Positions 2,169 to 16,749 of a DNA stretch of 20,810 bases are shown in pieces (the first letter of the stretch is position 1; every line of letters begins with the position of its first letter). Below the pieces are notes generated by a model. That model was not told the origin of the DNA, did not search any database, and saw only the letters and a program-made list of their open reading frames with translations. The DNA comes from a virus. Made by a program: the position numbers and the translations under genes. The DNA is taken from positions 1-20,810 of IMG/VR virus record IMGVR_UViG_3300020420_000071; one strand, written 5' to 3'.

Positions 2169-2398
2169 GTTTTTTAACACCAAAAGTTCCGGCCCCGCCA
2201 CCGGTCGAACCACCTCCCCCGGCCCCGGCTGTGCCGGATCCAGTTGTTCCGGATAGCGCTGTATCAGCTGAGAGTGAAGTGCAAAGCAGAAGAAGAAATA
2301 GAAAAAGAGTAAGTAGACAATCAACTATACTTACTGGATCACAAGGTTTGCTAACTGAAGCACCAGTTGAATATAAATCTTTAATAGGGAGGTCTTGA
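2165..2398 (+). CDS. small proline-rich phage protein, unknown function
   Basis: This 77-aa protein starts within the terL stop (ATGA overlap) with SD TAGGAG at 2151-2156. Residues 8-30 are almost entirely proline, alanine and valine. A basic patch follows (RRRNRKRVSR), then a C-terminal motif ILTGSQGLL...APVEYKSLIG. Small proteins ending in this kind of ILTG/GLL/KSLIG motif occur in the terminase-portal interval of many podoviruses, but their role is not established to my knowledge. The next protein ends in a related motif. It is probably disordered and virion-associated. Confidence 0.75.
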   Translation: MSFLTPKVPAPPPVEPPPPAPAVPDPVVPDSAVSAESEVQSRRRNRKRVSRQSTILTGSQGLLTEAPVEYKSLIGRS

Positions 2399-3039
2399 TG
2401 GCTGGAGAAACAAGTTCACCTGGAGAACAGACAAGCTTGCAACAAGAGATTGCTGGTGCAACAGATGACGAAGAGATCCAGGAAGCTACAGATCGATTTG
2501 AAGAGATGTCCTTGAATCCAGCTTTATATGGAGATTTTGCTGGTAGTACACAATTATCCAATCAGATGAATACAAATGCCCTGGGCAATCCTTATACACA
2601 ATCAGATGCTTTTGTACCAGGAATGAACGCGCTGACTTATATCAGCCAGCAAAGCGCCAGGAACATGCAGCAGCAGCTACAAAGAGGTGGATCACCTATC
2701 TATGGTGATGGCCGGCTTCAAGGTGTGATGGGCCAGGGACTGCTAGGTGGTCGTGGTTATTCCGGTAATCCGGACTTTGATCCAAACAGAACTATACCGG
2801 ATGATGGTGGTGATAATACAAGTGTTGCTTCAAGAAGAAACAATAGGCCGGTAAGAGGTGTGTCGAATGATGCCAGGGTATTACCAAGGCGCGTTTCACC
2901 AAGAACTACAATTAGAGGAACGGGCGCGCCAACTCTTGCGCCAAGGCTGAGATCCAGGGGCGGTGCTAGTATTCGTACAAGTAGTGCCGGTGTCCTGGGG
3001 AGTGCGCCAGTTCAACGTAAAACATTATTAGGAAGTTAA
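2398..3039 (+). CDS. low-complexity phage protein with RKTLLG C-terminus, unknown function
   Basis: I chose ATG 2398 over the in-frame TTG at 2395 because the SD GGAGG (2388-2392) is correctly spaced from it and it overlaps the previous stop as TGATG. The 213-aa product has an acidic, glutamate/glutamine-rich N-terminus, a Gly/Gln-rich middle and an Arg-rich C-terminal third with many RR pairs. It ends in GVLGSAPVQRKTLLGS. That ending resembles the tail of the preceding 77-aa protein, suggesting a shared docking motif. It has no recognisable enzyme domain. Its position before the portal suggests a head or connector accessory role, which is inference. Confidence 0.75.
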   Translation: MAGETSSPGEQTSLQQEIAGATDDEEIQEATDRFEEMSLNPALYGDFAGSTQLSNQMNTNALGNPYTQSDAFVPGMNALTYISQQSARNMQQQLQRGGSPIYGDGRLQGVMGQGLLGGRGYSGNPDFDPNRTIPDDGGDNTSVASRRNNRPVRGVSNDARVLPRRVSPRTTIRGTGAPTLAPRLRSRGGASIRTSSAGVLGSAPVQRKTLLGS

Positions 3040-3110
3040 TGAACAATTTTATTTACATGACTTTATTGATTTGGAGTTGTGCTTTTTTGGGAGGTTTTCT
3101 CTATGGCTGA
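3039..3110 (+). CDS. hidden 23-aa hydrophobic membrane peptide
   Basis: ATG 3039 overlaps the previous stop (TAATG), and AGGAAG (3030-3035) lies three bases upstream as a possible SD. The 23 codons end at TGA 3108-3110, which overlaps the portal start (ATGGCTGA). The ORF therefore fills this gap completely with the same overlapping junction style as its neighbours. After MNNF the peptide is almost wholly hydrophobic with a WSCAFLGGF core, the right length for one membrane-spanning helix. The SD of the portal gene lies inside it. It could be a real mini-protein or a translated leader coupling the two genes; chance cannot be excluded at this length. Confidence 0.45.
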   Translation: MNNFIYMTLLIWSCAFLGGFLYG

Positions 3111-4707
3111 CGATTTAGCAATCGACTTGATGAAAAGATTTGGAGCATTGGAAAGCCAGCGACAAACCTGGGAATCTCATTGGCAAGAGGTCGGTGATTT
3201 CATAATACCAAGGAAAGCTGACATAACCAGGGTAAGATCACCTGGAGATAAAAGAACTGAATTAATATTTGATGGAACAGCTGGCATGGCAGCGCAGCTG
3301 CTATCGTCATCGTTGCATGGGATGCTGACCAATATGTCCACTAAATGGTTTTCATTACAGTATCAAACTGACGAACTTAACATGAATGACGAAGCAAGAG
3401 AGTGGCTTGGTGATGTTGAAAGAAAAATGTATGCAGCTTTCCAGAGATCAAACTTTAATGAACAGATCCATGAATTGTATCATGACCTCGTTACCTTTGG
3501 GACCGCGATCATGTTTGTCGAACAAGATGATGAGTTTTCAGTAAACTTTTCAACCAGGCATATTTCTGAATGTTATGTGACCGAAGATGACAAAGGTCGA
3601 ATAGATACTGTCTATAGAAAATTTAAAATGCCAGCCAGGGCAGCGATCAACAGATTTGGTGAAGAGAACTTTACAAGCAAAATGCTGAAGCTTGAAAAAG
3701 AAAAGCCATACGAAAATATAACTTTGCTGCATGCTGTTTATAGAAGAGATGATAGAGATACTACAAAAGTTGATGCTCAGAACAAACCGATCGCATCTGT
3801 TTACTTAGAGCCGGATGAGAAAAAAGTTTTATCAGAAAGTGGTTTTGATGAGTTTCCATACTTAACACCAAGATTTTTTAAAGCCAGTTTCGAAATAGGA
3901 TATGGTCGATCTCCAGCAATGACAGCGCTCGCAGATGTCAAAATGATTAACGCCATGTCTGAAGTTTCGATTAGGGCTGCCCAAAAACAAGTAGATCCTC
4001 CGCTGCTTGTTCCGGATGATGGTTTTATTTTGCCGATAAGAACAGTTCCAGGTGGCCTAAACTTTTATAGAGCCGGATCCAGGGATAGGCTTGAGCCTTT
4101 GAATATAGGTGCAAATAATCCCGTTGGTTTAAATATGGAAGAGCAAAGACGTAAAGCAATACAATCTGCTTTTTATGTAGATCAGCTAACAACCGGGCAA
4201 AGTCCAACCATGACCGCTACTCAGATCATCCAAATGACGGAAGAGAAGATGAGGATCATGGGGCCTTTGCTGGGCAGACTCCAGGCGGAGTTATTGCAGC
4301 CTTTGATTTCCAGGACCTATAATATCCTGGCAAGATCCCAGGCTTTCAAACCAGCACCGGAATCTATCCAGGGTGAGGGATTTGATATTGAGTATGTTAG
4401 TCCTCTTGCAAAGGCTCAAAGAGCCGGGGATGTTCAGTCAATACTGCAATTCATTGAGTTATCTCAGCCCCTTGCAAATATAGATCCAGGGGTCGTTGAT
4501 TACCTGGACACAGATAACTTGATAAAACATCTGATCTCCGCCTTGTCTGTTCCGGCAAAAGTTGTGAGGGACCAGGCTCAAGTCGAGGAGATAAGAGAAA
4601 CAAGATCACAACAACAAGCAGCGCAAGCTGAACAAGAGCAGTTGGCCCAGGCAGCTGAAGCTGCTGGCAATGCTGCGCCTTTCGTGAAAGCAGTAGCGAA
4701 TGAATGA
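3103..4707 (+). CDS. portal (head-to-tail connector) protein
   Basis: This 534-aa protein forms the ring at the capsid vertex through which DNA enters and leaves, and on which the tail assembles. The start is ATG 3103, with SD GGGAGG at 3089-3094; an upstream TTG at 3079 would add eight residues and lacks support. The N-terminus (LMKRFGALESQRQTWESHW, then IIPRKAD) and SSSLHGMLTNMSTKWFSL (about residues 65-82) are characteristic of the podoviral head-to-tail connecting protein family (Pfam Head-tail_con). The length matches T7 gp8 (536). The C-terminal 40 residues are Gln/Ala/Glu-rich, probably the helical barrel. It overlaps the next gene by 8 bp. Confidence 0.93.
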   Translation: MADDLAIDLMKRFGALESQRQTWESHWQEVGDFIIPRKADITRVRSPGDKRTELIFDGTAGMAAQLLSSSLHGMLTNMSTKWFSLQYQTDELNMNDEAREWLGDVERKMYAAFQRSNFNEQIHELYHDLVTFGTAIMFVEQDDEFSVNFSTRHISECYVTEDDKGRIDTVYRKFKMPARAAINRFGEENFTSKMLKLEKEKPYENITLLHAVYRRDDRDTTKVDAQNKPIASVYLEPDEKKVLSESGFDEFPYLTPRFFKASFEIGYGRSPAMTALADVKMINAMSEVSIRAAQKQVDPPLLVPDDGFILPIRTVPGGLNFYRAGSRDRLEPLNIGANNPVGLNMEEQRRKAIQSAFYVDQLTTGQSPTMTATQIIQMTEEKMRIMGPLLGRLQAELLQPLISRTYNILARSQAFKPAPESIQGEGFDIEYVSPLAKAQRAGDVQSILQFIELSQPLANIDPGVVDYLDTDNLIKHLISALSVPAKVVRDQAQVEEIRETRSQQQAAQAEQEQLAQAAEAAGNAAPFVKAVANE

Positions 4708-13452: not shown

Positions 13453-16400
13453 ATGGGTTTTATTTTTGAAACAAATGAATCTGATAATGTCGTAAATCGC
13501 TTGCCGACTATAAATAATAAAAAAGAAAAAAGCTTTATTGAAAATTTTTCGGCAGCTTACAATTTTTCAGAATACAACAATACATCCATATCTGAATCTC
13601 TTGTTCTCCAGGAAGAATGGCAGCCTATTGTTGATCTTATAAAACAAAGAAAACCAAGACCAAATTTTATTGATCAACCAAGCGCTTTGCTTAATTCAGC
13701 AAGCGCAGATCCTACAATCAATCCTGGTAAATATTTAAGTATAGGCATCTTTAATGAGGACCAGCATCTTACTTATGAAAAAGCAGTAAAGAATATAAAG
13801 AAATATGTAGAAGATAATAGAGATATTTTTCCGGACCTGGTTATCGATGAAAATAAAATTTATGAAAATGCAAAAAAAAGAGCGCTGGATTCAAGAGAAA
13901 AATATAACGAGATTACAGAATCTTCTCCAAGTGCATCCAATGCTATTGCAAGATTTTTAGGAGAAGCTGGATCACTTGTGCAAGATCCGGTATTGCTTGG
14001 AACTTTATTTTTTAGTGGTTTCGGTCCTCAGAATTTACTTGGGGCATCTTTAAAAGAAGCCATGCTTGGTGCTGGATCAGAAATAATAATACAATCAAAA
14101 GTAAAAGATTGGTATAAAACTCTCGGTGTAGACTATAGCTGGGAACAGTTTTGGACAGCTGTTGCATTTGGTGGCGCTATTGGTGGCGCAACACCTTTGG
14201 CATTTAAGATTGGCGGTAAAACTTTTGGTCTTACTGTAGATCAAATAAAAAAAGGTTTGAAAGCAATATCGCCAAAAAAAGGTAGTTCAGCTGATCTTTT
14301 ACAGAAAGCTGCTGAATTTAAAGAAGATGGTGTCAACTCAAATCCTTTAAATAACAAAGGTGTCGATGAACATGTTGCCAGGCTAAATGAAGCTGAAACT
14401 GCTGTTGAATCAAATGAGTTACCAAACCTATCTGAGAAGCCGGTCGCAGAGGTAAAGCCGGTAAAATCAGTATATGACAATGAACAGCAAAGCGGATTGA
14501 TAAAAGACTTTGATCCCGATGAATTATTAGTTGATGCTGAAACATTCCAGTTTAAAGCTGGTGGTGATGAGAGTGGTGTTACTGATAGGCTTCGAGGTGT
14601 AAAAAAATGGGATGACATCAAAGCTGGTGTTGTCGTTGTTTATGAATATGCTGATGGTAGAAAGTTTATAGCTGATGGTCATCAAAGATTAGGTCTTGCT
14701 AAAAGACTCAAGTCTGAGGGCCAGCCAGTTACGATGAGAGGATTCTCTCTCAAAGAGATTGATGGGTTTACTCCGGAGATGGCAATGGTATCAGCTGCTC
14801 TTAGAAATATTGCTGAGGGAACTGGTACTGCAATCGATGCAGCAAAAGTATTAAGATCTGAGCCTGGAAGAATTAGTGAGTTACCGCCCAGGTCAAACCT
14901 TGTTAGGCAAGCTAAAGCTTTGGTCAACTTACCAAATAATCTTTTTGGTATGGTTATCAATGATGTTGTGCCGGCAAAATATGCAGCAGCTGTTGGTCGA
15001 TTGATTCCAGACAATCCGGATCTCCAGGAAGCTGCTATGACAATATTAGCAAAGAGATTGCCGGAAAATGAGTTTCAAGCTGAAAGCATAGTCCGCCAGG
15101 TTATCGATGCTGGTTTTACAAAATCAGAGCAAAATACTTTATTTGGTGCTGAGTTAGTTCCGGAAAGTTATTTTATGGAAAGAGCGAAAGTCTTAGATGG
15201 GGCAGTAAAGCTTCTTAGACAAGACAAGCAAGCTTTTTCAAACTTAGTTAACAATGCAGCGCGCCTGGAAGCTGAGGGCAATGTCCTGGCGCGTGGTGCA
15301 AATTTAGAAAGGGTAGGTCAAGATGGCCAAGCAATCGAACTCCTCCAGGCAGTTGCCAACAGAAAAGGATCTCTCAGCGATGCGCTCACAGAAGCAGCAA
15401 AAGTCGCCAAGGAAGAGGGGTATCAACAAGCTACTAGAGGCTTCGTCAATGCTGTCCGAAACGCAGTTAGAGAGGGCGATTTCAACCGGGTTGCAGTTAG
15501 CGATGTTAGACGCGGTATCGATGATACAACGGAAGTCCTTGAGCGTAGAGTTGCAGCGGATCCAAAACTCGAAAACTTCGACCAACCAGCCGGACCAGGA
15601 TCCAGGCAGCAATCAGATCAGCTAGAGCAAGATCTATATGGTGAACGAAGAAGAGAGGGTTTTACAGAAGATATTGAACTTAGAGAGGATCTAAAAAATA
15701 AATTAGAAAAAGGAATGTCTGATGCCGATGTTGATACTCATCCAGCCATAATAAAAGCCTTAGACGATGCCGACAAAATAGAACTTACAAACTTAAAAGA
15801 GGGATATTTATCAGATGCTTGGTTAGCAGATAGAACTTTTAATATTGACGGAATGTCCTTAAAAGGGTACTCTAATGGTATAAAATCGCTAGTTGCCCGC
15901 GCTAGAGTTTTAAGTTACTTGGATAGCGGGACAACACCACCATCAAACTATAATGTCATACCAGGCAAAACTGCTGTTATCCTTACCGGACCACCGGCAG
16001 CTGGTAAGTCAACAATAGCAAACCAGGTAGCAAAAAAACTTGGGGCAGCGATTGTAGATCCGGATGATGCGAAGAAAGCTTTGCCGGAGTTTCAAGGTGG
16101 TTTAGGTGCTAATGCTGTTCACGAAGAAAGCAGCTACATAGCAAGAACTGTCCAGGACATTTTAATGAATGAAGATGCAAACCTGGTCATACCGAAAGTT
16201 GGTGATAATGCAGACAAGCTTAGGCAGCACATACAACAACTTAAAAACAAAGGATATAAAGTTATCCTTGGTAATGTTGATGTATCAAATCAAAATGCTT
16301 TGCAAAGGATGCTGGCGAGGTTCGTCAAAACCGGTAGACTTATCAGTCCAAAGTATGTTAGATCTATTGGTAATAGACCGAATGAGAATTATAAACTTTT

Positions 16401-16749
16401 AAAAAGAGAAGCTGATGGCTACGGAGAAATCGACAACAACGGAGGATTCCAAGATCCTAAAATCATCCGAGAGGACACAGACCAAATCTTCGAGGGATTT
16501 GAACTTGAGCGAAATCGAGGACCGAGTGATGACCGAAACATTGCCAAAAAACCTACAGAAGATAGTAAACTCTCTTTCGAAGAAACCGAAACAACAAGCT
16601 TAACAGACGATCCGGAGTTCAGATTTCCTACGGGAACTACTGACGAAGCCGGAGAAATAATTGCTACTACACAAACACTTAAAGAAATAGAAGAAGAGAT
16701 TGCCCAGGATCAAAGGATGCTGGATAGATTAGAGGGTTGTGTAGCATGA
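13453..16749 (+). CDS. polyvalent virion protein: ejection N-terminus, ddrB-like ParB, zeta-toxin kinase
   Basis: This 1098-aa protein is in the gp16 position. Residues about 160-265 are Gly/Ala-rich and hydrophobic with QDPVLLG and DYSWEQFW...GGAIGGA, as in large ejected phage proteins. Residues about 355-475 resemble the ddrB-like ParB domain: VDAETFQFK, VTDRLRGVKKWD, then ADGHQR (407-412). A helical linker follows. Residues 836-990 look like a zeta toxin/UNG kinase: Walker A GPPAAGKST (846-854), DPDD (869-872), VHEESSYIA, and QRMLARF...R. Zeta enzymes phosphorylate UDP-GlcNAc and block peptidoglycan synthesis. No epsilon antitoxin is nearby. It is probably packed in the virion and injected. 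It ends in a charged segment (DQRMLDRLEGC) and overlaps the next gene as ATGA. Confidence 0.75.
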   Translation: MGFIFETNESDNVVNRLPTINNKKEKSFIENFSAAYNFSEYNNTSISESLVLQEEWQPIVDLIKQRKPRPNFIDQPSALLNSASADPTINPGKYLSIGIFNEDQHLTYEKAVKNIKKYVEDNRDIFPDLVIDENKIYENAKKRALDSREKYNEITESSPSASNAIARFLGEAGSLVQDPVLLGTLFFSGFGPQNLLGASLKEAMLGAGSEIIIQSKVKDWYKTLGVDYSWEQFWTAVAFGGAIGGATPLAFKIGGKTFGLTVDQIKKGLKAISPKKGSSADLLQKAAEFKEDGVNSNPLNNKGVDEHVARLNEAETAVESNELPNLSEKPVAEVKPVKSVYDNEQQSGLIKDFDPDELLVDAETFQFKAGGDESGVTDRLRGVKKWDDIKAGVVVVYEYADGRKFIADGHQRLGLAKRLKSEGQPVTMRGFSLKEIDGFTPEMAMVSAALRNIAEGTGTAIDAAKVLRSEPGRISELPPRSNLVRQAKALVNLPNNLFGMVINDVVPAKYAAAVGRLIPDNPDLQEAAMTILAKRLPENEFQAESIVRQVIDAGFTKSEQNTLFGAELVPESYFMERAKVLDGAVKLLRQDKQAFSNLVNNAARLEAEGNVLARGANLERVGQDGQAIELLQAVANRKGSLSDALTEAAKVAKEEGYQQATRGFVNAVRNAVREGDFNRVAVSDVRRGIDDTTEVLERRVAADPKLENFDQPAGPGSRQQSDQLEQDLYGERRREGFTEDIELREDLKNKLEKGMSDADVDTHPAIIKALDDADKIELTNLKEGYLSDAWLADRTFNIDGMSLKGYSNGIKSLVARARVLSYLDSGTTPPSNYNVIPGKTAVILTGPPAAGKSTIANQVAKKLGAAIVDPDDAKKALPEFQGGLGANAVHEESSYIARTVQDILMNEDANLVIPKVGDNADKLRQHIQQLKNKGYKVILGNVDVSNQNALQRMLARFVKTGRLISPKYVRSIGNRPNENYKLLKREADGYGEIDNNGGFQDPKIIREDTDQIFEGFELERNRGPSDDRNIAKKPTEDSKLSFEETETTSLTDDPEFRFPTGTTDEAGEIIATTQTLKEIEEEIAQDQRMLDRLEGCVA

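Follow-up and report, generated by a model that had tools for sequence, protein, structure and literature searches.

In the window, the 20,810-base virus record analysed here, a 63-nt piece of DNA confined to one lineage separates a 213-aa gene from the portal gene and creates a 23-codon mini-ORF between them. We put the probability at about 0.5 that this insert-born mini-ORF relays ribosomes from the upstream gene to the portal, its peptide probably being a by-product. The relevant features are as follows.

2398..3039, + strand: upstream 213-aa gene, with a conserved KTLLG* end and a C-terminus that weakly resembles phrog_831
3030..3035, + strand: AGGAAG in the conserved 3' end of the upstream gene (KTLLGS*); putative Shine-Dalgarno (SD) sequence of the mini-ORF here, of the portal in relatives
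3037..3041, + strand: TAATG stop-start junction with a 1-nt overlap; alternatively a tandem stop, TAA TGA
3039..3110, + strand: 23-codon mini-ORF (MNNFIYMTLLIWSCAFLGGFLYG); ATG at 3039, TGA stop at 3108-3110
3040..3102, + strand: 63-nt lineage-specific insert, 51% T, lying after the TAA of the 213-aa gene and before the portal ATG; missing from all related junctions
3089..3094, + strand: GGGAGG, new putative portal SD within the insert, 8 nt 5' of the portal ATG
3103..3110, + strand: 8-nt overlap of mini-ORF end and portal start (ATGGCTGA)
3103..4707, + strand: portal/head-tail connector, phrog_332; its ATG agrees with the start in relatives

The start and stop of the mini-ORF, the TAATG, the AGGAAG and the 8-nt portal overlap all proved exact when the original prediction was re-read against the sequence. 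The hydrophobic character claimed for the mini-peptide was also borne out: its 23 residues include no charged ones, and the best 18-residue Kyte-Doolittle mean is 1.91. The ATG follows the end of AGGA by 5 nt. The two strands of the window contain 153 ORFs of 18-45 aa with an ATG start, and of these the mini-ORF alone combines an SD with a segment of transmembrane grade. Its choice of synonymous codons resembles that of genes, ranking at the 35th percentile among in-frame pieces and at the 87th among off-frame ones, which for 23 codons is weak evidence. Judged from the sequence, translation of the mini-ORF is likely.

The window stems from a marine relative of SAR11 phages. It represents the packaging and structural module of a relative of the HTVC010P-type pelagiphages, with the gene order terS, terL, small genes, portal (phrog_332), protease/scaffold-like protein, capsid (phrog_3437) and tail proteins. 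With the mini-ORF set aside, the window has 17 gene junctions, of which 11 are overlaps of 1, 4, 8 or 10 nt, and the -1 and -8 overlaps of the mini-ORF match this pattern. A 77-aa gene at 2165-2398 is a match to phrog_831 (5e-13); the 213-aa gene (2398-3039), through its own end, weakly resembles the C-terminal part of that family (0.0086). The two genes suggest a common C-terminal motif (SLIG/TLLG) that may double as the SD of the next gene. In the 1098-aa gene at 13453-16749, residues of about 838-990 match ATPase/polynucleotide kinase families (phrog_2071, phrog_505).

For comparison, related loci were gathered with the portal, the 213-aa gene, terL and the capsid as queries. This yielded 205 measured junctions between upstream gene and portal, many of which come from near-duplicates or from loci that overlap on one contig; a related count arrived at 106 distinct junction sequences. 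The set may lack records that are very close to the window. The spacing is -1 to +4 nt in 191 of the 205 junctions. Apart from the window, a 63-nt gap was seen in one further locus alone, which is the window's own copy, and the insert was found in none of the relatives' portal junctions. The upstream gene of the relatives ends in KTLLG(S/G)*, and the AGG(A) at this position can act as the portal SD in most of them. In the portal tree the four sisters of the window (L225, L109, L117 and L090; support 100/99, about 76-80% portal identity) all have the direct junction, as does L193 on the next branch. Since the sister group and L193 join the genes directly, gain of the insert on the window branch would be the simplest history. 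The mini-ORF's frame, start and stop are not conserved, either in the 205 junctions or in the searches of phages, PHROGs, Pfam and patterns. A frame broken in close relatives had been named as a finding that would refute the mini-ORF; this applies in part, in that the frame is absent rather than broken, the whole 63-nt segment being missing at 76-80% portal identity.

The sole near relative is contig 3300001832_000012 (L082 and L110, 95-97% nucleotide identity); it ends at window position 2736, before the junction, and the evidence for the insert comes from one assembly of a single metagenomic record. An assembly or sequencing artefact is nevertheless very improbable, because the flanks on either side are exact and keep the register, the insert begins and ends on codon signals and, unlike a chimera, it has no match to any other sequence. 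Searching the insert DNA in phages gave only noise (E 3-9), and no source by duplication was found within the window or the fetched loci. The insert contains no detected promoter, terminator, Rfam family or unusual RNA fold (fold z -0.11).

The proposed course of events starts with insertion of the 63-nt piece between upstream gene and portal in the window's lineage. The ancestral portal SD and stop/start would then have become the start of the 23-codon mini-ORF, and the insert would have supplied a new portal SD, GGGAGG. Ribosomes finishing the upstream gene would probably translate the mini-ORF via TAATG and would be passed to the portal through the 8-nt overlap. In this manner the pair could stay coupled across a 63-nt gap that would otherwise uncouple it. 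In E. coli a gap of 38 nt lowers reinitiation by 80-100% (PMC10666635); a bare 63-nt insert is therefore expected to uncouple the portal. By the distance rule of the same study, the contacts of -1 nt and -8 nt both represent the overlap or very short stop-start distance of coupled pairs, and the commonest overlaps across prokaryotes are -4, -1 and -8 (PMC10666635). These restored contacts favour a relay. The -8 overlap adds no independent weight, since ATGGCTGA is the conserved portal start and the overlap is automatic once the frame is open. Counting against the relay are the single sequence and the fact that TAATGA may be a mere tandem stop. Nor is a relay strictly needed: the portal owns a strong SD, from which it might initiate independently and make the mini-ORF unnecessary, and non-coding spacers exist in other lineages. 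The original prediction had offered either a coupling leader or a lysis/superinfection peptide. The leader agrees with the ancestral SD and stop/start taken over, the new portal SD and the operon-type overlaps, whereas the peptide role gained no support.

It is possible, if rather doubtful, that the insert is an untranslated spacer that only gives the portal an independent SD, the mini-ORF being a chance reading of T-rich DNA plus a tandem stop. The T content of the insert is 51%, compared with 27% in the window, and only 22 of 20,748 63-mers on the + strand are equally T-rich, overlaps of the insert itself among them. An open frame as such is no rarity (26-43% of random 61-mers), and a second + frame of the insert is also open over 26 codons. 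Of dinucleotide shuffles of the insert, 35% were open and 10% of the open ones were at least as hydrophobic (3.5% overall); 0.7% of random 61-mers from the window were both open and at least as hydrophobic. The mini-ORF thus exceeds chance expectation by a modest margin, and the hydrophobicity of the peptide is at least partly, perhaps largely, due to the T-rich insert, since T-rich DNA encodes hydrophobic residues. Spacers with a new portal SD but without a bridging ORF are in fact found at the same junction elsewhere (52 nt in L159/L217 and 29 nt in L211/L241), both unrelated to the window insert. What speaks against an untranslated spacer is the SD at 5 nt, the TAATG and the gene-like synonymous codons of the mini-ORF, together with an operon consisting otherwise mostly of overlapping genes.

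These other spacers have peculiarities of their own. The 52-nt spacers of L159 (about 4000-4080) and L217 contain a near-palindrome, GGTCATATAGTGACC and GGGTCATATAATGCCC, respectively, unlike the window insert. In the 29-nt pre-portal spacer of L211 a 16-bp palindrome, TGTTCCACGTGGAACA, is located at 1637-1652, and its counterpart in L241 (1638-1653) reads TGTTCTACGTGGAACA. It is absent from every other fetched locus and, in our estimation, resembles bacterial ParB parS sites.

The peptide could also be functional in its own right. That the lineage gained a single-span membrane peptide, for instance a modulator of the host envelope or a superinfection exclusion peptide, is unlikely. The 23 uncharged residues with an 18-aa core of mean 1.91, a composition that is rare in the window, and the presence of an SD are consistent with such a role, yet the peptide is located within the packaging operon, is missing in relatives and has no homologue or family in Pfam, in PHROGs, by tblastn in phages or in degenerate-pattern scans. 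A conserved family of small phage proteins would be expected to have homologues that keep the frame, start and stop; these searches and the 205 junctions revealed none. The degenerate peptide-pattern scan of viral contigs gave 0 matches. A scan for the junction pattern led to three loci, namely L159 with its non-homologous spacer as well as L261 and L262, in which local tblastn found no peptide match. The sole match in genome contigs (L263) was rejected as a chance frame within a 494-aa membrane-protein gene. Quite unlikely, too, is a recently born membrane micro-gene, in which the insert would have taken over the existing SD and stop to yield a de novo translated 23-aa transmembrane peptide under selection.

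We regard a holin-like lysis peptide as extremely improbable. The mini-ORF does encode a hydrophobic membrane span (18-aa mean 1.91) as holins do, and it lies in a late operon of a window in which no other holin was recognised. Against this, it is neither present across the phage group nor beside an endolysin: it is coupled between packaging genes, and all relatives, which lack it, must lyse otherwise. It also lacks charged or topogenic residues, and for lysis the HTVC010P-type phages reportedly possess a peptidase M15 (PMC10504331), a further point against a lysis peptide. The proposed lysis and superinfection roles are consequently speculative, since the uncharged, non-conserved peptide has no homologue, relatives do without it and a peptidase M15 is reported in this phage type. 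The favoured relay leaves room for a membrane role, while the hydrophobic peptide would probably be a by-product of T-rich DNA.

If the mini-ORF is translated, it would illustrate how a tightly coupled phage operon can tolerate an insertion that turns into a tiny relay ORF, and how capture of a ribosome-binding site already in place can give rise to a new mini-gene. Though restricted to one lineage, the example would then be useful for studying how small genes are born. If it is not translated, the insert is a spacer particular to this lineage and of minor importance.

HTVC010P-type pelagiphages such as HTVC010P, Lederberg, HTVC100P and Skadi share the window's gene order of terL, small genes, connector/portal, small gene, scaffold/protease and capsid, and their portals are 57-60% identical to that of the window. 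They differ in that the upstream gene abuts the portal directly, without a mini-ORF. Phage proteins below 100 aa have been reviewed (PMC11323111), and the mini-ORF is likewise a tiny unannotated phage ORF; in contrast to the reviewed proteins it has no family, conservation or known function. The short uORF upstream of iraD (PMC5574718) is alike in that translation of a short ORF could set that of the next gene, whereas no regulator-binding site or structure was seen in the window insert. Compared with termination-reinitiation pairs with -1, -4 or -8 overlaps (PMC10666635), the middle gene has just 23 codons, is recent, and its coupling is putative; it likewise overlaps its neighbours, by -1 on the side of the 213-aa gene and by -8 on that of the portal.
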